Positions 25,953-63,849 of a stretch of 64,000 bases of DNA are shown here, one piece after another. This DNA is from Candidatus Gastranaerophilales bacterium (lineage in GTDB: Bacteria; Cyanobacteriota; Vampirovibrionia; Gastranaerophilales; Gastranaerophilaceae), in contig CALVAA010000005.1 of the NCBI GenBank assembly GCA_944325315.1, positions 1 to 64,000 of the forward strand. The letters are read 5' to 3'. The first letter of the stretch is position 1. Every line of letters begins with the position of its first letter. A program made the position numbers and the translations under genes. The notes below the pieces were generated by a model. That model made no database searches, was not told the DNA's origin, and saw nothing but the letters and a program-made list of their open reading frames with translations.

Positions 25953-26667
25953 AAGATATAAAGATATATTTTCCCAATACATACATAAAGGAGAGCCTGC
26001 GCCGTTAACTATCGGAACTTTGGCAGTGTGTGGTTTTTGTTTTTTGTTATTTATACTTGTAACTTTCAGCCAGTTTAATTTTTCTCATCCATGGTTTGAA
26101 TATATTAAAGGGCAAGGTTTTTCTGTTATTTCAAAGCAGGTTTCATACAATCCTTTAGTTCCTGTTATGATTTTTGTTATTTATATTTTGTCTAAAAATT
26201 ATTCAATTCTTTTATTCATTTTATATCTTTTAATAGGGTTTTTTATCTGGCCGATTTTTGTTTATGGCGGTGGTTTTGAATATATTAAAAATTATCTTTT
26301 CGGATATTTTTTAGGATTTGTTTTTGCCTCTTTTGTAATAGACAATATTTTTAGAAACCAAACGGTTAAATCCAGGCTTTTAGGCGCTTTTTTCGGAGTT
26401 TTAACAATACATTTGTGCGGCCTTTTTTACTGCATTATTCTTGCAATTTTTAAAGTAATTAATTTCAGTTTAATTATTCCTATTGTACATGCTATGAGCG
26501 TCACTAAAATTCTTTATGATATTTTATTCAGCTTTATTTTAATACTTATAGCTCCTTATATTAAAAATGTTTTGTGGGTTTGCATGAAACCTAAAAGCGA
26601 CAGCAAGAAAAATAAAACACCAAAAACTAAAAAATCCCGGCGTATGAAACCAAATAATCTGTTATAA
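25939..26667 (+). CDS. BioY-like membrane protein (probable biotin transporter S component)
   Basis: A 242-residue integral membrane protein with about six hydrophobic segments (residues about 28-48, 70-110, 115-140, 150-175, 195-215). The middle region, VPVMIFVIYILSKNYSILLF, then GGGFEYIKNYLFGYFLGFVF and the ASFVIDNIF...GAFFGVLTIHLCG block, follows the BioY pattern (aromatic-Gly loop before a GY-LGF helix). BioY is the substrate-binding subunit of an ECF biotin importer. It ends in a Lys/Arg-rich tail that overlaps the convergent fliR by 41 bases. Confidence is moderate because the match rests on pattern only. Confidence 0.65.
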   Translation: MLINKRYKDIFSQYIHKGEPAPLTIGTLAVCGFCFLLFILVTFSQFNFSHPWFEYIKGQGFSVISKQVSYNPLVPVMIFVIYILSKNYSILLFILYLLIGFFIWPIFVYGGGFEYIKNYLFGYFLGFVFASFVIDNIFRNQTVKSRLLGAFFGVLTIHLCGLFYCIILAIFKVINFSLIIPIVHAMSVTKILYDILFSFILILIAPYIKNVLWVCMKPKSDSKKNKTPKTKKSRRMKPNNLL

Positions 26668-27406
26668 CATTTATCAGCATAGGCAAAATTACAATTAAAA
26701 TAAAAGCCCCCATGACCGGTTTAAATAGAAAGCTTAGAGAAAAAACATTTACCTGTGGAGCGGTTTTTGATATTATTCCAAGAATAATATCTTGTCCTAA
26801 AGTTGCAAGCAAAACAGGACCTGCTATATGCAGCCCCATAAATAAAACATTTGCCGTAAGTTCACTTAAATATCCTACATTTACAATATTTTCAAAATGA
26901 AAATTGACACTATACATAGGATACAATTCAAAGCTTTTTATAAAAGCATTAAAAAGCCAATATATTCCTCCGGAGTACATAAAAATCAAAAGTGCAAGTA
27001 CTGAAAAAAAGTTTGCCATAACACTTACCTGGGTTTTTGTGCTGGGGTCCATTACCATAGCCGATGATAAGCCCATTTGTGTATTTATCATATCGCCTCC
27101 GGCTAAAATTGCAGCAAGTACGCAGTTTGCAACATACCCTATTATTGCACCAAATATAAAATTTAAAACCATGCAAAGAAAAATAGGCGTACCGTCAGGA
27201 GGCGCTCCGGGATGCAAAACGCCGGCTAAAATTACGGTTGAAATAAGGGCAAAAGAAAGCCTCACCATAGCAGGAATTTCGCTTTTGGATAAAACAGGTG
27301 CAAGTCTCATTAAGCCTATGAGTCTTAAAAAAATCATAATCCCTGCGCCGAGAGCGTTATTCAGCTCGGGAAAGAAAGTTGCAAATTGTTTTAAAATTTC
27401 TTCCAA
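26627..27406 (-). CDS. fliR: flagellar export gate protein FliR
   Basis: Inner-membrane component of the flagellar type III export gate, which packs with FliP and FliQ into a helical pore. It has 259 residues and about six hydrophobic segments. Motifs IMIFLRLIGLMRLAPVLS at the N-terminus, AGGDMINTQMGLSSAMVMDP (the conserved QMGL...DP segment) and the C-terminal LFKPVMGAFILIVILPMLIN fit the family. It is the last gene of a minus-strand flagellar operon, 11 bases after fliQ, and overlaps the convergent BioY-like gene by 41 bases. Confidence 0.95.
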   Translation of the reverse strand: MEEILKQFATFFPELNNALGAGIMIFLRLIGLMRLAPVLSKSEIPAMVRLSFALISTVILAGVLHPGAPPDGTPIFLCMVLNFIFGAIIGYVANCVLAAILAGGDMINTQMGLSSAMVMDPSTKTQVSVMANFFSVLALLIFMYSGGIYWLFNAFIKSFELYPMYSVNFHFENIVNVGYLSELTANVLFMGLHIAGPVLLATLGQDIILGIISKTAPQVNVFSLSFLFKPVMGAFILIVILPMLINVITDYLVSYAGIF

Positions 27407-27417
27407 TTTTTATTTCC

Positions 27418-27912
27418 TTAGTTTCCGTTTTGGATTTTCATTCTTTCAATGAAATTAGCTTCCGACATTGGTGTTTGTTTTGATTTAATGTATACTTGGT
27501 GTCTTGTTGCTTTTTTGTCCCAAGGTATTTGCCCTTTGTTTATGAGAGCCTTATTTAACGAACTATCTTTTTCTATTCTATCTTGCATTTCGGCGCTAAA
27601 AGGCCGTGTATATTTAAAATAGTTTTCAGGCAGTACAAAAGAATCGTTCTTAGGAACAATTTCAAAGGCCAAATGAGTTCCTTCGAAAACAAAATTAGTA
27701 AGAACTTTAATAAAATATCCTCCTAAAATTACTATTGTCAAAAAGACAATAACAATTTTAGGCGCAGCAGCAATTGTTTGTTCCTGAACTTGTGTAACAG
27801 CTTGCAAAATGCCGACAACCAGCCCTACAAGGGCAGCCATAAGTACACATGGCATACTTATTAAAAGCATTACCATAAAACCCTTTGCTAAAAATTCTAC
27901 TAAAACTTCCAT
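27418..27912 (-). CDS. fliQ: flagellar export gate protein FliQ with C-terminal extension
   Basis: FliQ is normally about 90 residues with two membrane helices; both are here (residues about 8-38, MVMLLISMPCVLMAALVGLV; and 50-75, IVIVFLTIVILGGYFIKVL), with the conserved loop QAVTQVQEQTIAAAPKIV between them. This protein continues for about 75 more polar residues (NDSFVLPENYFKYTRPFSAE to IERMKIQNGN), giving 164. The extension resembles nothing I know and its reading frame is intact. It overlaps fliP by one base and sits 11 bases before fliR, so co-expression is clear. Confidence 0.93.
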   Translation of the reverse strand: MEVLVEFLAKGFMVMLLISMPCVLMAALVGLVVGILQAVTQVQEQTIAAAPKIVIVFLTIVILGGYFIKVLTNFVFEGTHLAFEIVPKNDSFVLPENYFKYTRPFSAEMQDRIEKDSSLNKALINKGQIPWDKKATRHQVYIKSKQTPMSEANFIERMKIQNGN

Positions 27913-28553
27913 TAGTTAAAGCTCTCCACAAGTCCTTTTACAATTAAGCTCCAGCCGTCTACCGCTATAAAAATCAGCAGTTTAAAAGGTGTTGAAACAA
28001 TTTGGGGTGATAACATAAACATACCTAATGCAAGTAATATATTTGCAACGATTAAATCCAATACAATAAAAGGTACATATATGATAAAACCTATTTCAAA
28101 TGCTGTTTTAAGTTCAGAGACAATATAAGCCGGAGCCACTTCCCATAAAGTAAGTTCATCCGGGGTTTGCGGGGGAGTTTTTCTTGTTTTTTCGACAAAA
28201 AATGCTAAGTCAGCCTGTCTTGTTTGTTTTAACATATATTCTTTCAATGGTTTAGAACTTGCATTTAATGCTTCAATTACATTTTGGTTTTTCTCATAAG
28301 GAATTTGAAACTCTTTATACATATTGTCAAAAACAGGACTCATTGTGTAAATAGTCAAAATTAAAGATAATCCTATCAAAGTTATTGCAGGAGGAACGGA
28401 GTTTGTACCCATTGCGGTTTTAAGCATTGAAAAAACAACGGTAAATCTTAAAAAGGGAGTCATAGATACAAAAATAAACGGTAATAGCGAAAAGGTTGCC
28501 ATTACAATTAAAAGCTGTATAACCGGATTGATATCTTTTAATAAACTATCCAT
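27912..28553 (-). CDS. fliP: flagellar export gate protein FliP
   Basis: Core of the flagellar type III export gate. It has 213 residues. Signatures: MTPFLRFTVVFSMLKTAMGT (the conserved FxRxxxVxxxL...G block), NSVPPAITLIGLSLILT (the PP-x-x-x-x-GLxLxLT motif), a periplasmic loop, then YVPFIVLDLIVANILLALGMFMLSP (the DLxxxxxLxxxGMxMxxP block) and the C-terminal PFKLLIFIAVDGWSL. No cleavable signal is obvious, unlike many proteobacterial FliP. It overlaps fliO and fliQ by one base at each end. Confidence 0.96.
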   Translation of the reverse strand: MDSLLKDINPVIQLLIVMATFSLLPFIFVSMTPFLRFTVVFSMLKTAMGTNSVPPAITLIGLSLILTIYTMSPVFDNMYKEFQIPYEKNQNVIEALNASSKPLKEYMLKQTRQADLAFFVEKTRKTPPQTPDELTLWEVAPAYIVSELKTAFEIGFIIYVPFIVLDLIVANILLALGMFMLSPQIVSTPFKLLIFIAVDGWSLIVKGLVESFN

Positions 28554-29068
28554 TAAAAACTGCTCCCTTGAGAATTTGCCTTGTTTAAATCCTTCAAAAT
28601 TGCTCTTAGTATTTCTCTTTTATTATCCTTGTAATTAGCTCTGTTTAACGGCTCATCTTTTTGTGCCATTAAAGTCATAAATTGTTCTTGTATTTTTTCA
28701 TTGTGTGTTTTTTGAGTGTCATCGTATCTGATTTCTTGTTTTGGAATTTTTACATTTTGAGCTAAATCGTATTCTTTTCGTGCGGAAATTTCTTTTTCCT
28801 CTGTTTTCTTTTGTGTTTTTTCATCTTCAAGTTTGGATAAAAATGTTGTATGTTCTGCACCTGACGCTATTAAGAATTTTTCATTTCTTACTTTTACAAC
28901 AATAAGAACTTTCTTCGGGGCGATTGCAACACTGTCAAGAATTTTTATCATACCTTTATTGTTGTTTGGGGTGTTAGTTTGTATTTTTTTATAAACAACA
29001 AAACCAACAAGCAAAATTCCAACCATCGCAAGGGTATAAAATATAAAAGCTGTAATATATGTTATCAT
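28553..29068 (-). CDS. fliO: FliO-like flagellar protein
   Basis: A 171-residue protein with one N-terminal membrane segment (ITAFIFYTLAMVGILLVGFV, residues about 4-26), then a short beta-rich domain (residues about 40-82: IKILDSVAIAPKKVLIVVKV, NEKFLIASGAEHTTFLSKL) that matches the conserved FliO cytoplasmic region, and a long Lys/Glu/Gln-rich tail. FliO helps assemble the FliP-FliR core. Position between the C-ring protein gene and fliP supports the call; sequence identity to FliO is low across species generally. Confidence 0.85.
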   Translation of the reverse strand: MITYITAFIFYTLAMVGILLVGFVVYKKIQTNTPNNNKGMIKILDSVAIAPKKVLIVVKVRNEKFLIASGAEHTTFLSKLEDEKTQKKTEEKEISARKEYDLAQNVKIPKQEIRYDDTQKTHNEKIQEQFMTLMAQKDEPLNRANYKDNKREILRAILKDLNKANSQGSSF

Positions 29069-29083: not shown

Positions 29084-30271
29084 TTATTTTTCAAAATCCG
29101 AATAGTCAAATTCTTCATCGTCTGATGCCTGCTGTACTTTTGGGCGTACAGGTTGGCTTTGGGGTTTGGCTGCAGGCTTTGGTGTTGACTGTTGTGGTTT
29201 AGCAGGCTGCGGCGGCGGGGTTTGCGTCTTTTTAGAGGGGGGTGTTTTGTCTTTGGAATCCGAAAGAATTTCATTCAATCTCACCGCATACCTGTCGTTT
29301 ATAATAATAAGCTCTCCTTTTGCGACTTTTTTATCTTCAACAAAAAGTGCTATTTCATTATCAAAAACAGAACCTAAATCAACTACTTGACCTTTAGTAA
29401 TTTGTTTTAGTTCTCCTATTGTCATTTTTACTTTTTCAAATTCCGCATTGATTTCAATTTGTATATCATCCCAAAGGTTTTTTTCCATTGTTACCTCATA
29501 ATATGTATCTTCAGTTTCGTTTTCATTGTTGTCTATATCTACTATAAGCGAGCGGTTTATTTTTACATTGAACTTTTTTTCAAATTCCCCCGATATTAAA
29601 ATTAAATTTGAACTGCTGCTATTTTCCAAAACAACAATATCATCCTTTGCAAGATTTTTTAATTCGCTAAGAGTAATTTTTGTGCTTCCGGCTTTTATTC
29701 TTACGTGCGAATAGGATTTTGTAAAGTCTTCATCCGTAAATGATTCTTTTTTTACAATTGTTTTAAAGTTCATTCTGTCCATTGGAATTGAAATTATAAT
29801 TTTTGAACAAATATTTTCTTTTGATGCAACGAGGAAAATAAGATTAATATTTTTTTCGCTTTTGTCACTTAACTTTACTTCTTTGACAGGAATTAAAACA
29901 TCTTTCAATTTTTTATAAATAAATTCGCAAAAATTGTTCAGTATTTTAATTTCAAGGTTTGTAAGGTCTGTGAGTTTGAAGGGTTTTTTTGTGCAGCTCA
30001 AGGTTGATGATAAAAAAGTATCGCTAAAATCTTTTGAAAGTCTTATTACAACCGGTTTGTGGTTTTGTACTTTAATTTGGCTTGAAAAAAAATCAATATT
30101 AGAAATTAAAGCTTCGTCTCTCAATTCCCTATAGTCATTTATAGCGTATACAGACAGCTTTATATCTTGTTCCCAGAATTTTTCTATAGCTTCTTTTAAC
30201 ACTTCGCAAATTTGCGAAGCAAAAATATTGAAATCAATGTCTTCAAAAATATTTTTCTTTTTGTTTATCAC
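29084..30271 (-). CDS. C-ring switch protein with two SpoA domains (FliM/FliN or SctQ-like)
   Basis: A 395-residue protein. Residues 1-180 have helices and a hydrophobic beta pattern like the FliM/SctQ middle region. Two SpoA domains follow: about 188-248 (VRIKAGSTKITLSELKNLAK, FNVKINRSLIVDI) and about 267-336 (IQIEINAEFEKVKMTIGELK, KVAKGELIIINDRYAVRL), the latter the best FliN match. A Pro/Gln/Lys-rich tail (residues about 340-395) ends DDEEFDYSDFEK. The two-SpoA order resembles SctQ of type III secretion or FliY, more than separate FliM and FliN. The start is GTG. It is the first gene of the operon ending at fliR. Confidence 0.82.
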   Translation of the reverse strand: MINKKKNIFEDIDFNIFASQICEVLKEAIEKFWEQDIKLSVYAINDYRELRDEALISNIDFFSSQIKVQNHKPVVIRLSKDFSDTFLSSTLSCTKKPFKLTDLTNLEIKILNNFCEFIYKKLKDVLIPVKEVKLSDKSEKNINLIFLVASKENICSKIIISIPMDRMNFKTIVKKESFTDEDFTKSYSHVRIKAGSTKITLSELKNLAKDDIVVLENSSSSNLILISGEFEKKFNVKINRSLIVDIDNNENETEDTYYEVTMEKNLWDDIQIEINAEFEKVKMTIGELKQITKGQVVDLGSVFDNEIALFVEDKKVAKGELIIINDRYAVRLNEILSDSKDKTPPSKKTQTPPPQPAKPQQSTPKPAAKPQSQPVRPKVQQASDDEEFDYSDFEK

Positions 30272-36680: not shown

Positions 36681-36794
36681 GGTATTTTTATTAAAACATA
36701 AATATAACTCATTGTGTGCTATATTTTATTTTTTTTAAAAAAAATTAATATTTTAAAACAAAAATTTTTTTTCAAACGTTTTAAACATTTAGAT

Positions 36795-38225
36795 ATGAAT
36801 ATAAAAAATTTTTCCCGAGATAAAAATCAGACATTCAAAGGAAGTGTTTTTGAAAAACCTTTGGGTGTTTTTTATAATCCAAATGCCGTAATTCCTACTT
36901 TGGCCATAGAAGCGGGAGTTACTTTGGGTCGTTCTTTTGAAGCAAATAAAAGAGGCGGTAAAAAAGAAGCAACTGAAAGATTTGTCGAGCAAGGCCTGAG
37001 CGCTGTGATTTGGCTTTGGGGAGTTCAGGCAATTAAAAAAACGAATGATTTTTTGTCTAAAAAACTATTTAAACTTAACAATCAGGATTTTGATATAGGC
37101 TTTGATGAAGTCAGAAATCCCGTTAAAAATAATAATATTTCTAAAAAACTTGTTGCATACAAAACTTCGAACATTCTTTTTTCAACGGCACTTGCAACGT
37201 TTTTTATAGGTTTTATTTTGCCTAAAATAAATCATAAAATTTCATCAAAAGTTAATAAAGAAGAAAGAAAAAAAGACATAAAAACTTTTAATATTCCTTC
37301 TTTTGATGAGTTTAGGAAAAATAAAAAAGGAAAAAATCTTTCTTTTACTTCTGTTTTTTCAAACAAAGCTTATAAACTTGCCCATACTCTTGAAAACAAT
37401 TCTACTGCAAGGCTTTTGATTACAGATACAGGTGTTATATCGGGAAGATATTACAATTCAAGAAATAAATATGAAAAAATCGAAAGTTTGTTTAGAGATA
37501 TTTCTTCTATTTATTTTTATTTATTTTCTGCAAAACACTTTAAAAGGTTGTTAAATAATTTATCAAAAAATACGGATATTAATCCAAAAGCTTTGGAGAA
37601 TACTGTCTTAATGCTCAATAAAAATTTGGGCCAAGCCAAATTATTACCTGATGAATTTTTGGATAGTGCGGTAAAAAACCTTAAAAAGGAAGATTTAAAA
37701 AAGATTGATATGCTTTTTAAAAATAGAAAAACAATAAATTTGGAAGAATTTATAAAAAATTTTCCAATGTATGAAAAAGAAGCGTTAAAAATGTCCGAAT
37801 TACAACCGGTTTTTAACCAAAAGAGAATTTTAACAAAAATGCAGGCTAAAGATATTTTATCTCCGGGGTGGGTGTTTGATGCAGAATTTTTAAATAATGT
37901 TTTTAAAAATGTGACAAATGGTGCTTCGGCAGATAAAAAAAGATTTGTTGCAAACAAGAGTCTTGAAAGTTTAAGAATTTCCATTGAAAAGTTTGCAAAA
38001 CAAATCGCTGATTATTCATTTAAAAATGATGTTTTAGTTGATAAAAAGGTAATTAGAAAGGTTGCAGACAAAAATATAAGAAAAAATTTTATTTATAATA
38101 TATTTGCAACTTTTGTTTCAATTTATGCTTTGGGCATATTGATACCAAAGGTGCAATACTTTATTACAAAAAAATTAACTAACGAAGACAAATTTCCGGG
38201 TGAAGATGATTTTTTGAAAAAATAA
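36795..38225 (+). CDS. orphan 476-residue protein with N-terminal FKG motif
   Basis: I start it at the ATG of MNIKNFSRDKNQTFKGSVFE (476 residues); an open frame upstream has only AT-rich, non-coding-like sequence. The N-terminus has the QTFKGS motif at residues 12-17. Two hydrophobic stretches stand out: near residues 125-150 (ILFSTALATFFIGFILPKIN) and close to the C-terminus (IFATFVSIYALGILIPKVQY), both ending in an (L/I)-P-K motif, so a two-helix membrane topology is likely. The rest is Lys/Asn-rich. No known domain is recognised. Its start faces the quadruple winged-helix regulator, and a palindrome follows its stop. Confidence 0.7.
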   Translation: MNIKNFSRDKNQTFKGSVFEKPLGVFYNPNAVIPTLAIEAGVTLGRSFEANKRGGKKEATERFVEQGLSAVIWLWGVQAIKKTNDFLSKKLFKLNNQDFDIGFDEVRNPVKNNNISKKLVAYKTSNILFSTALATFFIGFILPKINHKISSKVNKEERKKDIKTFNIPSFDEFRKNKKGKNLSFTSVFSNKAYKLAHTLENNSTARLLITDTGVISGRYYNSRNKYEKIESLFRDISSIYFYLFSAKHFKRLLNNLSKNTDINPKALENTVLMLNKNLGQAKLLPDEFLDSAVKNLKKEDLKKIDMLFKNRKTINLEEFIKNFPMYEKEALKMSELQPVFNQKRILTKMQAKDILSPGWVFDAEFLNNVFKNVTNGASADKKRFVANKSLESLRISIEKFAKQIADYSFKNDVLVDKKVIRKVADKNIRKNFIYNIFATFVSIYALGILIPKVQYFITKKLTNEDKFPGEDDFLKK

Positions 38226-41434: not shown

Positions 41435-41610
41435 AATCTTAATATCCTATGTATTTAAATTTAAAAAAACTTTTGATATAATAAATTTTAGTCTAAAAAC
41501 AAAGACGTGGTCAACGAGGATTTGTAAAAAAATGTAAAATATGCTTGGGGAAACAGCAAGTGTTTTTTTTCACCCTCTTTGTAATTAATGTTTTGGATAA
41601 AAGTGAATTT

Positions 41611-42234
41611 ATGAAAATAAACAGCATTCAACAACAAACTCAAAATAGAAATCAAAATTTTAAGGGCTCTTTTGTAAATTCTGCAACAAATTTTATAGCC
41701 AAACATCCTATGGCAATTGCAGGACTTGCAGGATTTTCCGTTGTTGCCCAAAAAGTTGTGATGTCGGGCTCAGAAGCAACAATCGGTGCTGCTATGGATA
41801 TGGCTGTAGGTAACACTATTGCAAAAGCGGCAAATGAAAAAGACGGAAGGACAAAAGAAAGCTCAAAAGTTCAGGCAGTCAGGACTGCTGCTCAGTCAAT
41901 CGGCGGAACAGCTACCGGAGTTGTAGTTAGAATGGGTTGCATCCTTGCAGCAAGTGCGCTTTTAGGTGCAGCGGGCGCAAAAGCCGGGGAAAAGGGTGCA
42001 TCAAAAATTGCATCTATTGTAAACCCTGAAAAATACAATTCAAAAAAAGATGCATATCTGTTTGACAGGGAAATTAAAAGATGGGGCAAAAGCGTAGGCG
42101 GCGCTGCTGCAATTTGCGTTATGATGGTAACTAATTTTTTACTTGATGTGCCTTTTGTTAATTTCCTAAATAAGAAAATGTCTGATAAACTGCTTAAAAA
42201 TAAGATAAATCAAAATGTTAAGGAGGCTAAATAA
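41611..42234 (+). CDS. FKG-motif membrane protein, first of a two-gene cassette
   Basis: I start it at the ATG of MKINSIQQQTQNRNQNFKGS (207 residues), a typical short polar leader with QNFKGS at residues 15-20. Hydrophobic segments rich in Gly and Ala follow: about 33-50 (PMAIAGLAGFSVVAQKVVMS), 95-130 (GTATGVVVRMGCILAASALL) and 160-180 (GGAAAICVMMVTNFLLDVPF). No known domain is recognised. The stop overlaps the next gene in TAATG and AAGGAGG precedes it, so the two proteins are translationally coupled. Cassette partners may act as a membrane complex. Confidence 0.7.
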   Translation: MKINSIQQQTQNRNQNFKGSFVNSATNFIAKHPMAIAGLAGFSVVAQKVVMSGSEATIGAAMDMAVGNTIAKAANEKDGRTKESSKVQAVRTAAQSIGGTATGVVVRMGCILAASALLGAAGAKAGEKGASKIASIVNPEKYNSKKDAYLFDREIKRWGKSVGGAAAICVMMVTNFLLDVPFVNFLNKKMSDKLLKNKINQNVKEAK

Positions 42235-44402: not shown

Positions 44403-45059
44403 ATGTTCAGTCCGCAAATTCAAAGTTATATAGATTCATCTTCGCAAGCCCAGGCGTTTAAGCGTGTGAGCGAAATTAACAACTATATTAATTCGATTTA
44501 TCCCGTACAAAACTCTAATAAAACCCAGCAAGCTTCTGCTTTTGAAGAAATTTTAGCCGAGTCTAAAAAGGAAGATAAATCAGGAATATTTGATTTGGAT
44601 TTGCCCCCAAACATTAAAAAAACTGCCCCTGTGTCTTTCGGCTCTTTGACAAAGGTAACAGCTAAAAAACCGATTTATAATTCCAAAGAAGCAATTTTAG
44701 GCTATGTGAAAGAAGCGAGCGAGAAATACGGGGTTGAAGAAAAACTCATAAAAGCTTTAATAAAACAAGAATCAGGCTTTAATCCAAATGCAGTTTCAAG
44801 TGCAGGTGCAAAAGGTCTAATGCAATTAATGCCTGCAACAGCAAAACATTTAGGCGTAAAAGATGTTTTTAATCCGAAAGAAAATATTGAAGGCGGAGTA
44901 AAATATTTAAGACAAATGCTTGATAAATACAACGGGAATAAAATACTTGCTCTGGCTGCGTATAACGCAGGACCCGGAGCAGTTGATAAGTATGATGGTA
45001 TTCCTCCTTATCGTGAAACTCAAAACTATGTTAAATCCATACTTAAAGATTATCTATAA
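44403..45059 (+). CDS. lytic transglycosylase (flagellar cluster, SLT domain)
   Basis: A 218-residue protein. Residues about 95-218 are a soluble lytic transglycosylase domain: ALIKQESGFNPNAVSSAGAK holds the catalytic Glu, KGLMQLMPATAKHLG and ILALAAYNAGPGAVDKY follow. It cuts peptidoglycan glycan strands with 1,6-anhydro ring formation. The N-terminal 90 residues are low-complexity and lack a clear signal peptide, so export is probably by the flagellar route, as for FlgJ-type enzymes. Position directly before fliE supports a job opening the wall for the rod. Confidence 0.88.
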   Translation: MFSPQIQSYIDSSSQAQAFKRVSEINNYINSIYPVQNSNKTQQASAFEEILAESKKEDKSGIFDLDLPPNIKKTAPVSFGSLTKVTAKKPIYNSKEAILGYVKEASEKYGVEEKLIKALIKQESGFNPNAVSSAGAKGLMQLMPATAKHLGVKDVFNPKENIEGGVKYLRQMLDKYNGNKILALAAYNAGPGAVDKYDGIPPYRETQNYVKSILKDYL

Positions 45060-45070
45060 AGGAATAAAAA

Positions 45071-45385
45071 ATGAACAAATTGAATCCGGTTAACTTTTTT
45101 GAGATGAAAAAAATTGAGCCTATGAATTTGAATGGCTCTATTTCAATTAATACAGAAGAAGTTAATACTAAAAGCTTTAAAGATACAATCGGAGATATGA
45201 TACTCCAATTAAATGAGACAACAAATAAACCACAAGAGCTTGCAAAAGAAGCTATAAAAGGCAATGCAGATATCCATGATGTCATGGCTGCTATTGCCCA
45301 AAGTGAACTTACGGTACAAGCCGCAACAACCGTGACAGGGAAAATCCTGCAAACGTATGAGAAAATAATGCAAATACAGATTTAA
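45071..45385 (+). CDS. fliE: flagellar hook-basal body protein FliE
   Basis: A 104-residue protein that joins the MS ring to the rod. The conserved C-terminus has ELAKEAIKGNADIHDVMAAI, SELTVQAATTVTGKILQTYE and KIMQIQI, matching the FliE helices and terminal motif. The N-terminal 50 residues are variable. An AAAGGAA site 6 bases upstream supports the start. It follows the lytic transglycosylase gene and precedes fliF by 45 bases. Confidence 0.92.
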   Translation: MNKLNPVNFFEMKKIEPMNLNGSISINTEEVNTKSFKDTIGDMILQLNETTNKPQELAKEAIKGNADIHDVMAAIAQSELTVQAATTVTGKILQTYEKIMQIQI

Positions 45386-45430: not shown

Positions 45431-47137
45431 ATGGAAAAATTTGACCTGAAACAAATACTTGAAAATAAACCTCTTTTGTATACAATAGCTGCCTGTGCAG
45501 GTGTTGTTATTATTATGTTTATAATGATGATTTGTTTTATGGTAAATATACGAAATTCTGCTGCGCCAAGTCAGGACAGTCAAATAAAAGCAGCAGAAAA
45601 AATTATCAAAAACGATCCGGTTACATTATTTACAACGGATAATACCGGAAAAGCCCTTGAAGTGCAGGCACTTTTAGCACGTGAGCAAATTGTTGCAACT
45701 AAAGTAGACAACGGTTCAAAAGTAAGTGTTGTATTAAAAGAATATACTGAAGACCAAAGAGACAGAGCCCTTCTTGCAATAGTTAAAAGCGGACTTTTAG
45801 ACGAACACACCGGTCTTGAAATTTTTGACAAGGGAGATTTTACATCAACAAAAGACGATAAAAAAATTCGTCTTGTAAGAGCAATCAACGGTGAACTTGC
45901 CCGTCTTATAAGAAAAATCCCTCCGATTGAAAATGCTCAGGTATTTATTTCAATACCTGAACAGACATTTTTTGCGCAAAATCAAAAACCAATTACAGCT
46001 ACTGTTCAAATAACAATGCCATCAGGGGAACGTTTGGATAACATGAAAGTAAAAGCAATATCTAATTTGCTTTTAGGTGCAGTCCATGGACTTGAAGCAG
46101 ACAATATTTCAATAACTGACACAAACGGAACAGTCTATAATTCAATTATCGGTGCATCTGACGATGCGATTGCAAAACTTGAAGAAAATGATAAATATAT
46201 GCAATCAAAAGTTAATGCGCAATTAGATAAACTATTGGGTAAAGGAAACTATATTGCAACTGTTTCGACTTTTTTAACACAAGCACCTATTGAAAAGTCA
46301 AGTATACTTTACGATCCCGAACAAAAAACTTCTGTAGCCGAACAGCACTTCAGGGAAAATTTAGGGGATAATCATAATAATTCAGCAACATCCGGAATGA
46401 ATCCCGTTAGCGTATATGTTCCAAGCGGAGTTAAAAGTTCAATTCAACAAGGAACATCTTCCCAAGACAGACAATACTCAAGAACAGCTACAGAAACCCA
46501 ATACGGAGTTTCTAAAACCCAAATAAACGAATATCAGCAAGCAGGTATAATAGAAAAAATTTCAGTTGCAGTTTCAATAGAAGAAAGTGCAATCCCTACC
46601 AATATGAGTTTATATGAACTTAAAAGTCTTATAGCAAGTGCCGCAAGTCCCAAGGTTGATCCTGAGGATGTATCAATTGCTTTTGTGGAATCAAGCAGTC
46701 TTGTGCTTGCTCCCGACAAAGAAAATGAACTTCCTAAACCGGCAGAATCCGGAAACCCTTGGTGGGTTGTTGGCGCTATGCTTTTAGTCGGGCTTATAGC
46801 CGGTTTATCTCATATAGGTAAAAAAGTTAAAGATGAAGCAAGAAAACAAGAAGAAGAACTTGAATATTTAAGACAAATTGCAGCAAGCCAAGAGCAACAA
46901 TTAAAAGATGTTACAAAGCAAGCTTCAAATTTAGTTGCTCAACAAGAACAAATGGCTCAAAATTTTATCGAACAAAAAAACCAATATGCACTTGCTTTGG
47001 AACAAGCTAAATCCATGGCACAGACAGGCCCGAGGCATAATCTGTCCGAAGCGATAAATGAACTTGAATCAGACTTTAATTCTATAGATGAAAATGAAGC
47101 TATAGAAAAAATAAAAAATTGGATTGAAAATGTTTAA
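45431..47137 (+). CDS. fliF: flagellar MS-ring protein FliF
   Basis: Forms the membrane-embedded MS ring. It has 568 residues with two membrane segments (about 18-40, TIAACAGVVIIMFIMMICFM; and 438-458, NPWWVVGAMLLVGLIAGLSH). Between them the ring-building motifs are clear (ALEVQALLAREQIVATKVDN, KIRLVRAINGELARLIRKIP, AQVFISIPEQTFF, and the RBM3 region with SVYVPSGVKSS). The C-terminal tail (about 460-568) is coiled-coil with a final NELESDFNSIDENEAIEKIK segment, where FliG normally binds. It is a little longer than typical in the C-terminal coil. Confidence 0.95.
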   Translation: MEKFDLKQILENKPLLYTIAACAGVVIIMFIMMICFMVNIRNSAAPSQDSQIKAAEKIIKNDPVTLFTTDNTGKALEVQALLAREQIVATKVDNGSKVSVVLKEYTEDQRDRALLAIVKSGLLDEHTGLEIFDKGDFTSTKDDKKIRLVRAINGELARLIRKIPPIENAQVFISIPEQTFFAQNQKPITATVQITMPSGERLDNMKVKAISNLLLGAVHGLEADNISITDTNGTVYNSIIGASDDAIAKLEENDKYMQSKVNAQLDKLLGKGNYIATVSTFLTQAPIEKSSILYDPEQKTSVAEQHFRENLGDNHNNSATSGMNPVSVYVPSGVKSSIQQGTSSQDRQYSRTATETQYGVSKTQINEYQQAGIIEKISVAVSIEESAIPTNMSLYELKSLIASAASPKVDPEDVSIAFVESSSLVLAPDKENELPKPAESGNPWWVVGAMLLVGLIAGLSHIGKKVKDEARKQEEELEYLRQIAASQEQQLKDVTKQASNLVAQQEQMAQNFIEQKNQYALALEQAKSMAQTGPRHNLSEAINELESDFNSIDENEAIEKIKNWIENV

Positions 47138-47158: not shown

Positions 47159-48112
47159 ATGGCACAAGGTGATATAAAAACATTTGACTGCGATGCTTTC
47201 GCCAAAGACCTTGCAGGACAAGCAAGCCAGGTTGTGCCTAAAGATATTCAAAAAGAAGACAAAGATTTTGTGGTTGAAATTATTCTTCGTTTTTGCAAAA
47301 TGGCAGGCGATGCTTTAGTCAACGAAGAAAATTCAAAATTAAACGCTCAACAGGCAAGTCTTATTACCCAATTTATAGGCGAGTGGATATTCCATAAGTC
47401 CATAGATATTATACGGGCCGGAATTGAGCCAAAGTTTAGAGAAGGCATTTTACAAAAAGTCGCTTTTACTGTTTTTGATATAGCTAAAAAAGCAGTTGAA
47501 AGAGACATGCCTCAAGAACAGCTTATTACACTTGTTGAAGCACAGGTTAAAAAGTGTTTTACAAAAGCACTCGAAGACCTAAAAGAAAAAGGAATATTAA
47601 ACGAACAAATAACACAAAACGCTCTTGCGCAATCAAATATTGATGCTATGGCAGTCGAGCAGGTAGAAGAAGAAACAGTCAACGAAATTGCCACTATGAG
47701 CGACAGTAAAATTATCAAACTTGCTTCTTTAGCTGTTTTGATTCGTAATTTTCCCCCCGAGAGAATGAAGGGCATTTTGCAAAAATTTAATAAACCTGAA
47801 AGAGATGTGCTTTTAAGATATTTAAAGATGCCTAATTTAGAAGAAAAGCTTGATTTAAAAGCTACAATAAAGTGTTTTGAAGAAATTAAAAACACACTTC
47901 CGGAGGTAGTTGTTGTGAGTTATGATAAAGCATATAAAAAAATGTATAAAATTGTTAAAAATGCGCACAAAAACGAAATTTTGAATATTATAGATAATGA
48001 AAGACCAATGGTAAAAGAATTTGTGTTATCTTGTTATGAGCACAAAAAGAAAAAGCTTCCTGCTTATATTGCAGATACTATATCTAAATATTTAGAAGAA
48101 AATGTTTCATGA
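47159..48112 (+). CDS. FliG-position protein, strongly divergent
   Basis: A 317-residue soluble helical protein in the place of fliG, between fliF and fliH. Residues about 180-250 (SDSKIIKLASLAVLIRNFPP, ERMKGILQKFNKPERDVLLR) and the C-terminal MVKEFVLSCYEHKKKKLPAY with its long helix resemble the helical repeat folds of FliG, but the EHPQR motif and the charged torque helix are not apparent. The N-terminal 170 residues are also helical. The stop overlaps the next start (ATGA), showing coupling. It may be an extreme FliG or a replacement scaffold. Confidence 0.55.
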   Translation: MAQGDIKTFDCDAFAKDLAGQASQVVPKDIQKEDKDFVVEIILRFCKMAGDALVNEENSKLNAQQASLITQFIGEWIFHKSIDIIRAGIEPKFREGILQKVAFTVFDIAKKAVERDMPQEQLITLVEAQVKKCFTKALEDLKEKGILNEQITQNALAQSNIDAMAVEQVEEETVNEIATMSDSKIIKLASLAVLIRNFPPERMKGILQKFNKPERDVLLRYLKMPNLEEKLDLKATIKCFEEIKNTLPEVVVVSYDKAYKKMYKIVKNAHKNEILNIIDNERPMVKEFVLSCYEHKKKKLPAYIADTISKYLEENVS

Positions 48113-48915
48113 TCATAAGAAATAAAAATATTAAAACAAAAAAATCTGAATCATCAAAACAATCCGGTGTTTTCAAAGGAAATGTAATTAAAAAAGAAGA
48201 TTTGATTTTAGACAATGAAAACATCCAAAATACCAATGAAAAAAAAGAACCGGTTTTGCCTTCAAAGATGCCTGAAAACAGCGTAAGCGAATTGGAAGAA
48301 TTTGAAAAAATCGATATTACATCTATTGAATTTAAAGAAAGGGCAGAAAGAAGAAGAGGAGACAGAAGAAGAGGCTATAGAAGAATAGACGAAAGGTCTT
48401 TGGTATCACGTGCCCAAGCGGAAGCACATTCAATAAAAGAATTGGCCGCAAAAGAAGGCTACAAAGAAGGTTTAAAAAAAGCACAGAAGGAAATTGATGA
48501 AATAAAAAGTGCTTTGGTTGAATTTTTAAGCATAAAAGATGAAATGTATAACGATTTTTATCCGCATATTTTAGAAATTTCAATGGAAGTTGCAAAAAAA
48601 ATCATTAAAAAAGAAGTAGAAATGTCGGATGATATACTAAAAAATACGGTTTTATCGGCATTGGAAGAAGTTAATTCAGATGCTGAAAAAATTCAAATAA
48701 AAGTCAACCCTAATGATGAAGAATTTGCCGAAGCATCTTTACCTGATTTAATCAGTGCAAAGAAAATTAATGCAAAGGTAACAATTACTCAAGATTCTAC
48801 GGTTGAAGCGGGAAGTTGCGTTATTATTGCAAATAATGGGGTAATTGATGCTAATTTTTCAACCCAACTTTCAATTTTACAAGCCGCCTTTGGGATTTAT
48901 AAGGGAGGCTTGTAG
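48109..48915 (+). CDS. fliH: flagellar assembly protein FliH
   Basis: Stator-like regulator of the export ATPase FliI. It has 268 residues. An N-terminal variable part (about 1-95) contains an Arg-rich run (RAERRRGDRRRGYRRIDERS) and FKGNVIK at residues 23-29. Then comes a coiled-coil (QAEAHSIKELAAKEGYKEGL, with the GYKEG pattern) and the C-terminal FliH/YscL domain (SMEVAKKIIKKEVEMSDDIL, VTITQDSTVEAGSCVIIANN, and DANFSTQLSILQAAF). It overlaps the previous gene by 4 bases and abuts flhA by one base. fliI is not in the window. Confidence 0.88.
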   Translation: MIIRNKNIKTKKSESSKQSGVFKGNVIKKEDLILDNENIQNTNEKKEPVLPSKMPENSVSELEEFEKIDITSIEFKERAERRRGDRRRGYRRIDERSLVSRAQAEAHSIKELAAKEGYKEGLKKAQKEIDEIKSALVEFLSIKDEMYNDFYPHILEISMEVAKKIIKKEVEMSDDILKNTVLSALEEVNSDAEKIQIKVNPNDEEFAEASLPDLISAKKINAKVTITQDSTVEAGSCVIIANNGVIDANFSTQLSILQAAFGIYKGGL

Positions 48916-50996
48916 TGGCAAATCAAAGACAATCAAATCCTGTATCTGAAATTGCTTTAGCCGGTTTTGTAATAGTCTTAATATTAATCTTGCTTTTAGA
49001 GATGCCTAACTGGGTAATCAATTTTTCAATCAGCTTTAATATTACTCTTGGGATTGTTTTATTAATGATATCTTTATATGTAAACAAGCCCTTAGAGTTG
49101 GCTGCTTTTCCTTCTATTCTTCTTATAGGAACGGTTTTTAGGCTTGTTTTATCAATTGCTTCAACCCGTTTAATTTTAGCCAAAGGAGATGCAGGAGAAG
49201 TAGTTGAAGCATTCGGCCACTTTGTAACCGGCGGAAATATGGTTGTTGGCGGTGTTATATTTTTGATTATTACCGTTGTTCAATTTATGGTAATTACAAA
49301 AGGCGCAGAACGTATAGCTGAAGTTTCAGCTAGATTTGCACTTGATGCTATGCCGGGTAAACAAATGACAATTGATGCGGATTTTAATGCCGGTTTAATT
49401 TCACCGGATGAAGCGGTAAAAAGACGTGAAGATTTACAAAGGGAATCAAGCTTGTATGGTTCTATGGATGGTGCTATGAAGTTTGTAAAGGGTGATACTA
49501 TAGCAGGTATCATTATTACAATTATAAATATCGTAGGCGGTTTAATAATAGGCATTTTATTAAACGGAATGAGTCCTGAGGATGCGATTTCAAAGTATAC
49601 TATTTTAACAATCGGTGATGGTCTTGCCGCTCAAGTTCCCTCATTATTAATGGCTATTTCATCGGGTATAGTAATGACCCGTGCTACGGGCGGGGGTGTT
49701 GCATTGGGTTCTGATTTGGCAGTCCAGATATTGTCTAAGCCGACAAGTTTATTTCTTGCTTCCGGTTTTTTGATTTTAATTGCACTAACTTCAGGTGTAA
49801 CAGGGCTTCCTTGGTTTCCTTTTTTGGTATTTGCGGCAATTTTAATTCTCGGCGGCTTATCAGTTCTTGTAAACCAAGACGTACAACAGCAATTGGGGCA
49901 ATTGGATGCCGTAAAACAAAACATGCAAGATTTAGTTAATCCCAATAAAATGTATGAGCGCCTTGGTGTTGATGTTTTATCCTTGCAGGTCGGAGCAGGG
50001 CTTTTAGTAATAGCAGATCCCGAACAAGACGGCCAACTGTTAGCTAAAATTGCAGCTTTAAGACAAAGAGTAACGGACGATTTAGGCTACATTATTCCAA
50101 ACATTAGAATTATGGATTCAAGTGCCATTGGAGACAACGAATATTTAATTTCAATTCGTGGCAATCCTGTTGCAACGGGAACGGTTTATCCCGGTAAACT
50201 TATGGTAATAGCTGATCAGTATGATGCTTTAGGTAAAAAATTGCCTGAAAATGCTATTGTTTCGGTTGAACCTACTTTCCAATCACAAGCTTATTGGCTA
50301 AACCCTCAGCATATAAGTAAAAGCGACAATATTCAAGCAGTAGATGCTGTTGATGTTATAGTAACACACTTACAAGAGTGTGTCCGTAAGTATGTTGATG
50401 AAGTTATGACAAAAACAGATGTTTTAAAACTTATGGAGCTTGTTAAATCGCAAGACCCGACTCTTGTTAATGACCTTGTTCCTACCATTATATCAACATC
50501 AGATTTAAGAAAGATATTTGTTAATTTAATAAGAGAAAAAGTTTCAATAAAAGATATTATATTTATTTTTGAAAGATTATGTGACTATGCGAGATTTTCA
50601 AAAGAACCGGATATTTTATCAGAGCGCCTAAGGGCCGCACTTGGCCGTCAGATTTGTTTATCAAATGCAAACAAAGATAAAGTCTTATATGCGCTTACAC
50701 TTTCGAGTGAGTGGGAAAAAACACTTGACGACAGTTGCCAAAGAACTGAATTAGGTACGATGTTTTTACTGAATCCGATGCAAGTACAGGAATTAATTGA
50801 ATCGACCGCAAATACACTTATGCATGCTCAAAGCACGGTCGGAGTGCAGCCGGTTATTCTTTGTTCTCCGAGAATTCGCCTTCCTTTGTACCAAATGCTT
50901 GAGCGTCATATACCAACAATTGTTGTAATATCTTATTCTGAGCTTATAACAGACATCCGTGTTGAAGCTATTGATACAATAGGTGAAGACTATTAA
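48915..50996 (+). CDS. flhA: flagellar export gate protein FlhA
   Basis: Largest subunit of the flagellar export gate. It has 693 residues: eight membrane segments (to about 320), the cytoplasmic FHIPEP-type loop (RIAEVSARFALDAMPGKQMT, IDADFNAGLISPDEAVKRRE), and a large C-terminal docking domain (about 350-693) with LSVQVG-like DVLSLQVGAGLLVI, YWLNPQ and RLRAALGRQICLSN. The start is GTG overlapping the fliH stop, with GGGAGG 6 bases upstream. Its stop shares TTAA with the convergent DUF815 gene. Confidence 0.97.
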   Translation: MANQRQSNPVSEIALAGFVIVLILILLLEMPNWVINFSISFNITLGIVLLMISLYVNKPLELAAFPSILLIGTVFRLVLSIASTRLILAKGDAGEVVEAFGHFVTGGNMVVGGVIFLIITVVQFMVITKGAERIAEVSARFALDAMPGKQMTIDADFNAGLISPDEAVKRREDLQRESSLYGSMDGAMKFVKGDTIAGIIITIINIVGGLIIGILLNGMSPEDAISKYTILTIGDGLAAQVPSLLMAISSGIVMTRATGGGVALGSDLAVQILSKPTSLFLASGFLILIALTSGVTGLPWFPFLVFAAILILGGLSVLVNQDVQQQLGQLDAVKQNMQDLVNPNKMYERLGVDVLSLQVGAGLLVIADPEQDGQLLAKIAALRQRVTDDLGYIIPNIRIMDSSAIGDNEYLISIRGNPVATGTVYPGKLMVIADQYDALGKKLPENAIVSVEPTFQSQAYWLNPQHISKSDNIQAVDAVDVIVTHLQECVRKYVDEVMTKTDVLKLMELVKSQDPTLVNDLVPTIISTSDLRKIFVNLIREKVSIKDIIFIFERLCDYARFSKEPDILSERLRAALGRQICLSNANKDKVLYALTLSSEWEKTLDDSCQRTELGTMFLLNPMQVQELIESTANTLMHAQSTVGVQPVILCSPRIRLPLYQMLERHIPTIVVISYSELITDIRVEAIDTIGEDY

Positions 50997-61872: not shown

Positions 61873-63849
61873 ATGAAAGTAAGTAATGTTTTTGGGTTTA
61901 ATTGTACTAAACCGGTTAAGAATTTTAACAATGCCAAAAACCTGAGTTTTGAGGCACAATTCAAAAATGACAAAGAAAAACAGGATTACACCGACACAAT
62001 TAATCGTGCAATGGACTATTTAGGTATTCAAAACAGAGCTTTTATTATCCATGGCGCAAGCTTTCCGGCTAAAAAAGGCTCTTTTGACCAACAAGTAGGT
62101 ACTCCATACGGCAACAACGATTTTATTGATTTTGTAAAAACTCACGGTTTTAATTCAATTCAGCTTGGTCCTATGGGAAGGCTTAACAGGGGGGACAGTG
62201 CTCCTTATTCAAGTTCTATTGTTTTAAAAAACCCTCTTTTTATAGATATGCCTTCTTTAACAACTGATAACTATGCAAATCTTTTAACCAAAGAAGACAT
62301 TAAAGCCGTTGTGCCTAAGGCAAAATCAACAAGTAAAAACTATACAAGGGCTGATTTTGAAAAAGCAAGAGAAATTTCATCTGATTTAATTGAAACAGCC
62401 TATGACAATTTCTGTCAAAAACTTGAAGACGGGGATGAAAGAGCAGAAAAATTGTTTGACGAATTTGATGATTATAAAACTTCCCAAGGTGAATTGCTTG
62501 ACTACTACGCTGTTTTAGACCGTATAGCAGAGGAAAATGGAACAGATTATTATCCATATTGGTCAAAAGAAGATGCCGAACTTATTCCTCTTGTAAAAAA
62601 AGGAGATAAAAACGCAATAAACCGATATAATCAAATTATGGCAGAAAACGAACGGGATATTGATGTATTTAAATTTTCCCAATTTTTAATAGATAAACAA
62701 TCAAAAGAACACATTGCAAAAAATGATATTGAGTTTATAGGAGATCTTATTGTAGGGGTCGGAACTTTCGACCAGCTGGTTTTTGATGATGTTTTTTCAA
62801 AAGAATACAATATAGGATGCAAATACGGCGGTCCTTATAATTCTCCTCAAATTTGGGGCTTTCCCCTGGTAGATCCGGATAAAATATTTAATGCAGACGG
62901 CTCACTTGGTGATGGCGGCAAATTTTTAAAAGCAAAACTGGAAAGAGGTCTTTCTGACACAAGAAATACAAGAATAGACCATGTTATGGGTCTTGTAAAT
63001 CCATATGTATATAAAGCTGATACTGTTGTTTATGCCACTAAAAAAGATGAAAATGGAAAAGAAATTCAGTATCCTTTGAGGGATAAACTAAAAGGCGGAT
63101 ATTTAAGCGAAACGGGCCTTGATAAAAACCATAATTATCAAAAAATATTAGAAAGAATTATTCTTCCGACGATGGGAGAATACAATGTTGATCCTGATAA
63201 AGTTGTATGGGAAGATCTCGGTTTTGATGAGACAGGTGTTTTTAATAAAGTATTTAGAGACCAACAACATTTGCATGGTATAACAGGTCTTATTTGGACA
63301 AAAGGAGAAGAAGCAGACAAAGACAACTGGGCATATATAGGCTGTCATGACAATCCGCCTGTCAGAATGATGATAGAGAATAATGAAGTTCAAAATAAAG
63401 AACCATGGAAAGCAGGATATTTATCCAGTTATTTAAGATCTGATCCTTATAAAGCGGATGAAAGAGCTGAATTAAAAGAGCAAATTAAATCTGATCCAAG
63501 AGAGCTTATGAAAGCTAAATTTGCAGATTTATTCCGTTCGAGTAAAAATATTCAAATATCATTTATGGACTTTTTTGGAATAAATCAAAAATACAATACA
63601 CCGGGTACTGTAGGAAATGATAACTGGACTTTGAGGTTGAATCCGAATTATGTTGATACATATCACAAATCATTAGAAAAAGATGATTGGGCACTTAATC
63701 TTCCTGAAATTTTAAAGCTTGCCGTGCAATCAAAATTTGATGAAGATGTGTCTAAAAATCATAAGCCGTATAGGGAAACTCTAAACAGAGTTGCTCCGCT
63801 GATGGACGAATTAACCCATTGGGAAAACGTTCTTAAAGAGGAAGAATAA
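61873..63849 (+). CDS. 4-alpha-glucanotransferase-like protein (GH77), divergent
   Basis: A 658-residue GH77-like enzyme. Catalytic motifs are TRIDHVMGLV (nucleophile Asp), VVWEDLGFDE (general acid/base Glu) and GCHDNPPV (the HD of the transition-state site; the usual form is closer to THDT). Family members such as MalQ move maltodextrin units. The N-terminal leader MKVSNVFGFNCTKPVKNFNN ends in LSFEAQFKND, which recalls the FKG leader of other proteins here. Insertions at about 100-150 and 170-260 make it longer than many MalQ. It fits glycogen use with glgX in the same window. Substrate range is not certain. Confidence 0.85.
   Translation: MKVSNVFGFNCTKPVKNFNNAKNLSFEAQFKNDKEKQDYTDTINRAMDYLGIQNRAFIIHGASFPAKKGSFDQQVGTPYGNNDFIDFVKTHGFNSIQLGPMGRLNRGDSAPYSSSIVLKNPLFIDMPSLTTDNYANLLTKEDIKAVVPKAKSTSKNYTRADFEKAREISSDLIETAYDNFCQKLEDGDERAEKLFDEFDDYKTSQGELLDYYAVLDRIAEENGTDYYPYWSKEDAELIPLVKKGDKNAINRYNQIMAENERDIDVFKFSQFLIDKQSKEHIAKNDIEFIGDLIVGVGTFDQLVFDDVFSKEYNIGCKYGGPYNSPQIWGFPLVDPDKIFNADGSLGDGGKFLKAKLERGLSDTRNTRIDHVMGLVNPYVYKADTVVYATKKDENGKEIQYPLRDKLKGGYLSETGLDKNHNYQKILERIILPTMGEYNVDPDKVVWEDLGFDETGVFNKVFRDQQHLHGITGLIWTKGEEADKDNWAYIGCHDNPPVRMMIENNEVQNKEPWKAGYLSSYLRSDPYKADERAELKEQIKSDPRELMKAKFADLFRSSKNIQISFMDFFGINQKYNTPGTVGNDNWTLRLNPNYVDTYHKSLEKDDWALNLPEILKLAVQSKFDEDVSKNHKPYRETLNRVAPLMDELTHWENVLKEEE

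Follow-up and report, generated by a model that had tools for sequence, protein, structure and literature searches.

A protein in the fliG position of a second flagellar-type export gene set in Gastranaerophilales

An unnamed gene occupies the fliG slot of a second flagellar-type operon in the window, i.e. the whole 64,000-nucleotide stretch of DNA analysed here, which belongs to contig 5; the draft genome measures 1.81 Mb and is 96.9% complete. These flagellar-type genes form part of a second, divergent export set that runs parallel to the canonical one; this set has its own MS ring protein, FliE, FliH, ATPase, export gate and one SpoA protein, and in most members of the order Gastranaerophilales it is inherited without FliG_C and flagellin. 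The gene product, here called X, is best read as the adaptor between the MS ring and the cytoplasmic platform of a second, non-motile, flagellum-derived type III export machine, with a probability of roughly 60%. On the basis of structural modelling, X is likely to be homologous to FliG.

The canonical flagellum is encoded elsewhere in the same genome. A fliF-fliG-fliH-fliI cluster is present on contig 8, a fliP-fliQ-fliR-flhB-flhA cluster on contig 2, and FliM and FliN on contig 22. The contig 8 FliG matches PF01706 (FliG_C) with E=3.1e-40 and scores 346 bits against TIGR00207 (cut-off 227), and it was the only match when the whole genome was searched with PF01706. A preliminary description of this DNA had proposed that FliG was replaced by, or had diverged into, an unrecognisable scaffold, and that a double-SpoA protein in place of separate FliM and FliN pointed to a rebuilt C ring. 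Given the canonical FliG, X is not a replacement of FliG in this organism, and that part of the proposal is ruled out. The double-SpoA protein is real, but separate FliM and FliN have not been lost. The diverged scaffold and rebuilt C ring do not apply to the canonical flagellum; they are supported for the second, parallel system by the presence of X in the fliG slot, the docking-type FliF tail and the single-ORF SpoA protein of 31/31 sampled FliG-less genomes (see below), although the link of X to FliG is structural and weak.

The location of X between fliF and fliH and its ATGA coupling to fliH were correctly described (Table 1). The gene order around X in the window is SLT-fliE-fliF-X-fliH-flhA, and the order fliE-fliF-X-fliH-flhA recurs in 20/20 X regions read, from five families, with X in FliG's own gene slot between fliF and fliH in every one. 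In seven of these regions, two FlgF/G-like genes, flgB, flgC and an SLT gene lie upstream of fliE, and flhA is followed by fliI; G109, the genome behind one of these seven regions, has neither FliG_C nor flagellin. X itself reaches the cut-off of no Pfam model (best E 0.05) and of no NCBIfam model, that of fliG included. It is not a chance ORF, since orthologs occur in 188/192 genomes of the order and the gene order is kept in all 20 regions.

Table 1. Positions of X, its parts and the accompanying second-system genes in the window
Feature	Position	Strand	Evidence or remark
Second FliR	26627-27406	-	PF01311 E 7.5e-50
Second FliQ	27418-27912	-	PF01313 E 1.2e-19
Second FliP	27912-28553	-	PF00813 E 4.6e-66
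Second FliO	28553-29068	-	PF04347 E 9e-10
Double-SpoA platform protein, SctQ/FliN-like	29084-30271	-	PF01052, two stretches
Lytic transglycosylase (SLT)	44403-45059	+	PF01464 E 1.3e-36
Second FliE	45071-45385	+	PF02049 E 1.3e-15
Second FliF	45431-47137	+	PF01514 E 3e-36
Conserved C-terminal helix of second FliF, EAIEKIKNWIENV	about 47096-47134	+	tail comparison
X	47159-48112	+	317 aa; fliG slot of second flagellar-type operon
N-terminal long-helix domain of X	47171-47632	+	residues 5-158, AF2 model; missing in sister family f8
C-terminal core of X	47690-48109	+	residues 178-317; FliG N+M-like by predicted fold, without FliG_C counterpart
Invariant E281-R282	47999-48004	+	two ortholog alignments (27 rows; 45 rows)
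X stop/fliH start overlap, ATGA	48109-48112	+	shared bases
Second FliH	48109-48915	+	PF02108 E 3e-20
Second FlhA	48915-50996	+	PF00771 E 8.5e-217; FlhA tree

Duplication extends to other components of the export apparatus. The genome contains two full-length FlhA proteins, the canonical one and the window copy, and two FlhB proteins, the second on contig 1; a second FliI, encoded on contig 8, shares 77% identity with its counterpart in the X operon of a relative. On the minus strand of the window, the SpoA gene is followed by fliO, fliP, fliQ and fliR, and in the SpoA protein the FliM middle domain is a trace only (E 0.012). In 31/31 FliG-less genomes sampled, SpoA is found in exactly one ORF of 374-469 aa, as in the window; among FliG-less SpoA loci, fliP is close by in 8/8 and fliO in 7/8. 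The second copies score below their canonical counterparts on flagellar models (FlhA 687 vs 849 bits, FliF 112 vs 237, FliP 216 vs 274), and the window FlhA reaches 687 bits on the FlhA model vs 592 on SctV. In an unrooted FlhA tree with long branches and only six flagellar and three injectisome references, 17 second-system sequences group together in a single clade (100/100), separate from both reference groups. The window's genome additionally contains, on contig 21, a 483-aa ORF (L013:13814-15265) that corresponds to the soluble C-terminal part of FlhA only, without the membrane part (PF00771 positions 321-656, E 3e-45).

The distribution of X was compared with those of FliG_C and flagellin in the same 192 genomes, placed in Gastranaerophilales by their record titles. 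X is found in 188, FliG_C in 72 and the flagellin N domain in 74; X and FliG_C occur together in 69 genomes, X without FliG_C in 119, FliG_C without X in three, and neither in one. A flagellin is present in one of the 119, leaving 118 X-bearing genomes in which neither FliG_C nor the flagellin of a filament was found. The rod domain PF00460 was detected in 189/192 genomes, mostly in 1-3 copies in those without FliG and mostly in 5-8 copies in those with it. The flagellar-type MS ring protein and FliE are encoded in the window itself, and the rod genes (FlgB, FlgC, FlgF/G-like) were seen in relatives. In a search of 386 genomes of the phylum, 180 match X, 171 of them in the order and nine in two other families of the class, with no match outside the class among the genomes listed. 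Of 401 relatives of X, 80 were kept; the named records that contain X mostly bear the title Candidatus Gastranaerophilales, and no relative was found in viral contigs. Between two FliG-less congeners, dN is 0.18 and dS 1.21, many other dS values being close to saturation; in lineages without FliG, X evolves under purifying selection and is not decaying. Within the window's genus, two genomes (G089 and G095) are without canonical FliG_C and nine, including the window's genome, have it; one flagellin is still present in G095, and the two genomes apparently represent recent flagellum loss with retention of X. In a different relative in the order (G174), the flagellin N domain is matched 19 times, in many cases by a short ORF (160-191 aa).

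The AlphaFold2 model of X (pLDDT 78, pTM 0.50) consists of two helical domains, and the C-terminal core of about 135 aa was also modelled alone (pLDDT 88, pTM 0.50). That this domain is the conserved core follows from sister family f8 (eight genomes), in which the protein that matches X stands alone, has 126-150 aa and equals the C-terminal domain only (hhalign 96%, E=1.1e-9 against X 182-315); its gene adjoins fliH in 8/8 genomes and fliF in 6/8. The N-terminal domain can stand alone as well, since in family f7 a separate 187-aa protein encoded beside X resembles it (L052:10843-11406, L053:8492-9055). The torque helix and EHPQR motif of FliG had been described as not apparent in X. No torque domain was indeed found, but the statement is qualified by the invariant E281-R282 pair, which may be what is left of the EHPQR loop. 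Family f8 also has an ORF of 248-278 aa between the FlgF/G-like gene and flgB (L220:4689-5444, L216:13299-14120, and in the same place in L217, L218, L221 and L222). The L220 and L216 copies have no Pfam or NCBIfam match, and the product is a candidate exported or cap protein.

The predicted fold of the core provides the main indication of a relationship between X and FliG. A Foldseek comparison with the PDB returned 23 matches (E up to 10), of which 11, including the first-ranked, are FliG entries; these are related to each other and thus count as one signal. Structure prediction had been suggested as a check; with the core modelled alone, FliG is the commonest fold match, but every E is above 1 and no match is significant alone. 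In VIA alignments, residues 4-72 of the core model fit FliG_N as seen in FliF-FliG complexes of H. pylori and T. maritima (5wuj_B, Z 6.1, 4.1 A over 66 residues; 5tdy_B, Z 5.9, 4.2 A over 64 residues) and residues 7-71 fit FliG_M (4fq0_C, Z 6.2, 3.3 A over 62 residues), although chance alone can give helical proteins a Z of about 6. For the second half of the core, the better fit is to an unrelated domain of a viral protein (Z 6.8, 2.5 A over 68). The core aligns to the N and M modules of FliG only, and no Pfam match over cut-off was obtained for the FliG_C torque domain. With the whole model, Foldseek retrieved long-helix proteins, with no FliG among the 50 matches listed; four FliG rows among the best 50 in VIA (Z 5.2-5.8, X 182-317) were set aside because the alignment is too loose (rmsd 12-14 A). 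SctK structures are not among the listed fold matches, which excludes nothing.

Weak sequence matches point to the same part of the protein. Two distant orthologs have sub-threshold Pfam FliG_N matches (185-246 and 185-241, E=0.015 each), one of them also has a FliG_M match (E=2.8e-4), and MgtE_N matches are found in 8/27 aligned X members (best 0.0037). Those weak matches for which positions were seen fall in one common region of X. FliG is described, in the portion of PMC7355467 available, as a distant relative of MgtE. Homology between X and canonical FliG is not significant by profile comparison: hhalign of X against 21 canonical FliG sequences of the order gave at most 8% probability. A PDB sequence search with the X profile likewise yielded nothing significant.

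A putative docking partner for X is suggested by the neighboring gene. The tail of flagellar FliF co-folds with FliG_N according to the available portions of PMC6079021 and PMC7355467, and the second FliF has a conserved helix at its very end, where canonical FliF docks FliG. In the canonical FliF proteins of the order, this helix contains S-Y/F-I/L/V-K/R in 19/20 distinct tails. Second-system tails, typically EAAEKLKNWIE, contain K/R-x-W-I-E/D in 94/96 distinct tails and QSWID in the remaining two, and their tryptophan is found in 0/20 canonical tails. In f8, the six tails have the sequence ASKLQIWLEEG or close variants of it; that of f9 is EIDNWM. The second-system helix is related to the canonical one, yet distinct. 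That the second FliF retains a docking-type helix at its very end speaks for the existence of a partner, and it is X that holds the partner's slot.

In the proposed mechanism, the C-terminal core of X would be a reduced FliG N+M module that clamps the C-terminal helix of the second FliF, much as FliG_N grips the FliF tail in flagella. The short M-like part, with the invariant E281-R282, would face the SpoA platform, so that X would hand on to the double-SpoA protein and to FliH/FliI, and the N-terminal domain missing in f8 may be an added module for assembly or partner binding. The torque domain would be absent because nothing is rotated and the machine has no motor to couple to; proteins would be exported through a rod-bearing basal body that turns no filament. 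An N-terminal export signal ([NTS]FKG, VSFG and similar words) was sought in large uncharacterised proteins and is not convincing. The pattern, chosen post hoc, occurs in 9/212 ORFs of the window's genome vs about three expected; [NTS]FKG occurs in 6/958 ORFs of other genomes vs 2.8 expected, and five of these six belong to one gene family. Three large uncharacterised proteins of the window (36714-38225, 41545-42234 and 61873-63849) carry N-terminal words resembling NFKG, TFKG or LSFEA, a weak and post hoc enrichment.

The alternative with the most weight, a minority possibility at perhaps one chance in four, is that X is no relative of FliG and that the fliF-fliH slot was taken over by an unrelated scaffold of helical structure, either an analogue resembling SctK or a new protein. 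The failed profile comparisons with FliG, the lack of a Pfam or NCBIfam FliG match over cut-off and the weakness of each single fold match all agree with this. It accounts less well for the share of FliG among the fold matches of the core (11/23), for the clustering of weak FliG_N, FliG_M and MgtE_N matches in one stretch, for the constancy of the fliG slot in 20/20 regions, and for a second FliF that keeps a docking-type helix.

The other explanations concern the set as a whole. Incomplete sets were earlier read as remnants of a lost flagellum; Soo et al. 2014 (PMC4040986, in the portion available) took partial sets as non-functional flagella after loss, and filament and FliG are indeed missing in most members of the order. 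Decay of this kind is nevertheless very unlikely here, given that both sets coexist in 69/192 genomes, that X is intact in 188/192 and under purifying selection, that the operon order is kept in 20/20 regions, and that the second-system FlhA proteins form a separate clade. That the second set builds a motile organelle, with a different filament and motor, would fit the retained rod proteins but is equally improbable in view of the 118 X-bearing genomes without flagellin and FliG_C and of the lack of any torque-domain counterpart found in X. Least probable of all, X and its neighbors could be accessory parts of the canonical flagellum, in mixed or alternative basal bodies. The window's genome does hold both sets, but 119/188 X-bearing genomes have no FliG_C, so the set persists without the canonical flagellum, and its distribution has already largely refuted this explanation.

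As an adaptor of a non-motile export machine, X would resemble FliG in its fliF-fliH slot, in its FliF neighbor with a conserved C-terminal helix, and in a core whose best fold matches, each weak, are the FliG N and M modules. It differs from FliG in having no significant sequence match, no detected torque domain and an added N-terminal domain, and in belonging to a system with a double-SpoA protein, whereas FliG works with separate FliM and FliN. With the injectisome and its SctQ/SctK/SctL platform, the second set shares the export gate, ATPase, stator and single double-SpoA protein, for which SctQ is the second-best NCBIfam match. Unlike the injectisome, it has a flagellar-type FliF, FliE and rod proteins, and its FlhA scores higher as FlhA and groups apart from the three injectisome references. 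The secretin-less type III system of Myxococcales, as presented in the available portion of Abby and Rocha 2012 (PMC3459982), has no motility genes, was once called a relic and is kept by a whole clade; it lacks FlgB, FlgC, FliE and FliG. The second set is likewise clade-wide and apparently without motility genes, but differs from that system, as there described, in keeping FlgB, FlgC, FliE and a fliG-slot protein.

Complete or incomplete flagella, and no second system, are reported for Gastranaerophilales and Melainabacteria in the parts available of Soo 2014 (PMC4040986) and Utami 2018, and the published partial sets are probably these second-system genes. No description of the second system was found in the accessible portions of the open-licence literature on flagella and type III secretion in Gastranaerophilales, Melainabacteria and Vampirovibrio, nor in those of PMC5877343, PMC4040986, PMC9029806, PMC3459982, PMC6079021 and PMC7355467. 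A broader reading, tentative and slightly short of an even chance as a whole, is that the class containing Gastranaerophilales harbors a third evolutionary class of type III export system, derived from the flagellum separately from injectisomes. Such a system would keep the MS ring, FliE and rod, combine them with a truncated FliG fused to a new domain and with an SctQ-like platform, serve non-motile gut bacteria in the release or delivery of proteins, and represent a surviving stage between flagellum and injectisome in which FliG is still present.

It seems that a near-universal export machine of a gut-bacterial order has been taken for broken flagella. Should X be a torque-less FliG, the half of FliG that builds the platform has been naturally separated from the half that serves only for turning. 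The second system, if correctly interpreted, would mean that secretion systems arose from the flagellum by a further, independent route besides that of the injectisomes. It also points to the presence in the gut of exported proteins that have not yet been described.
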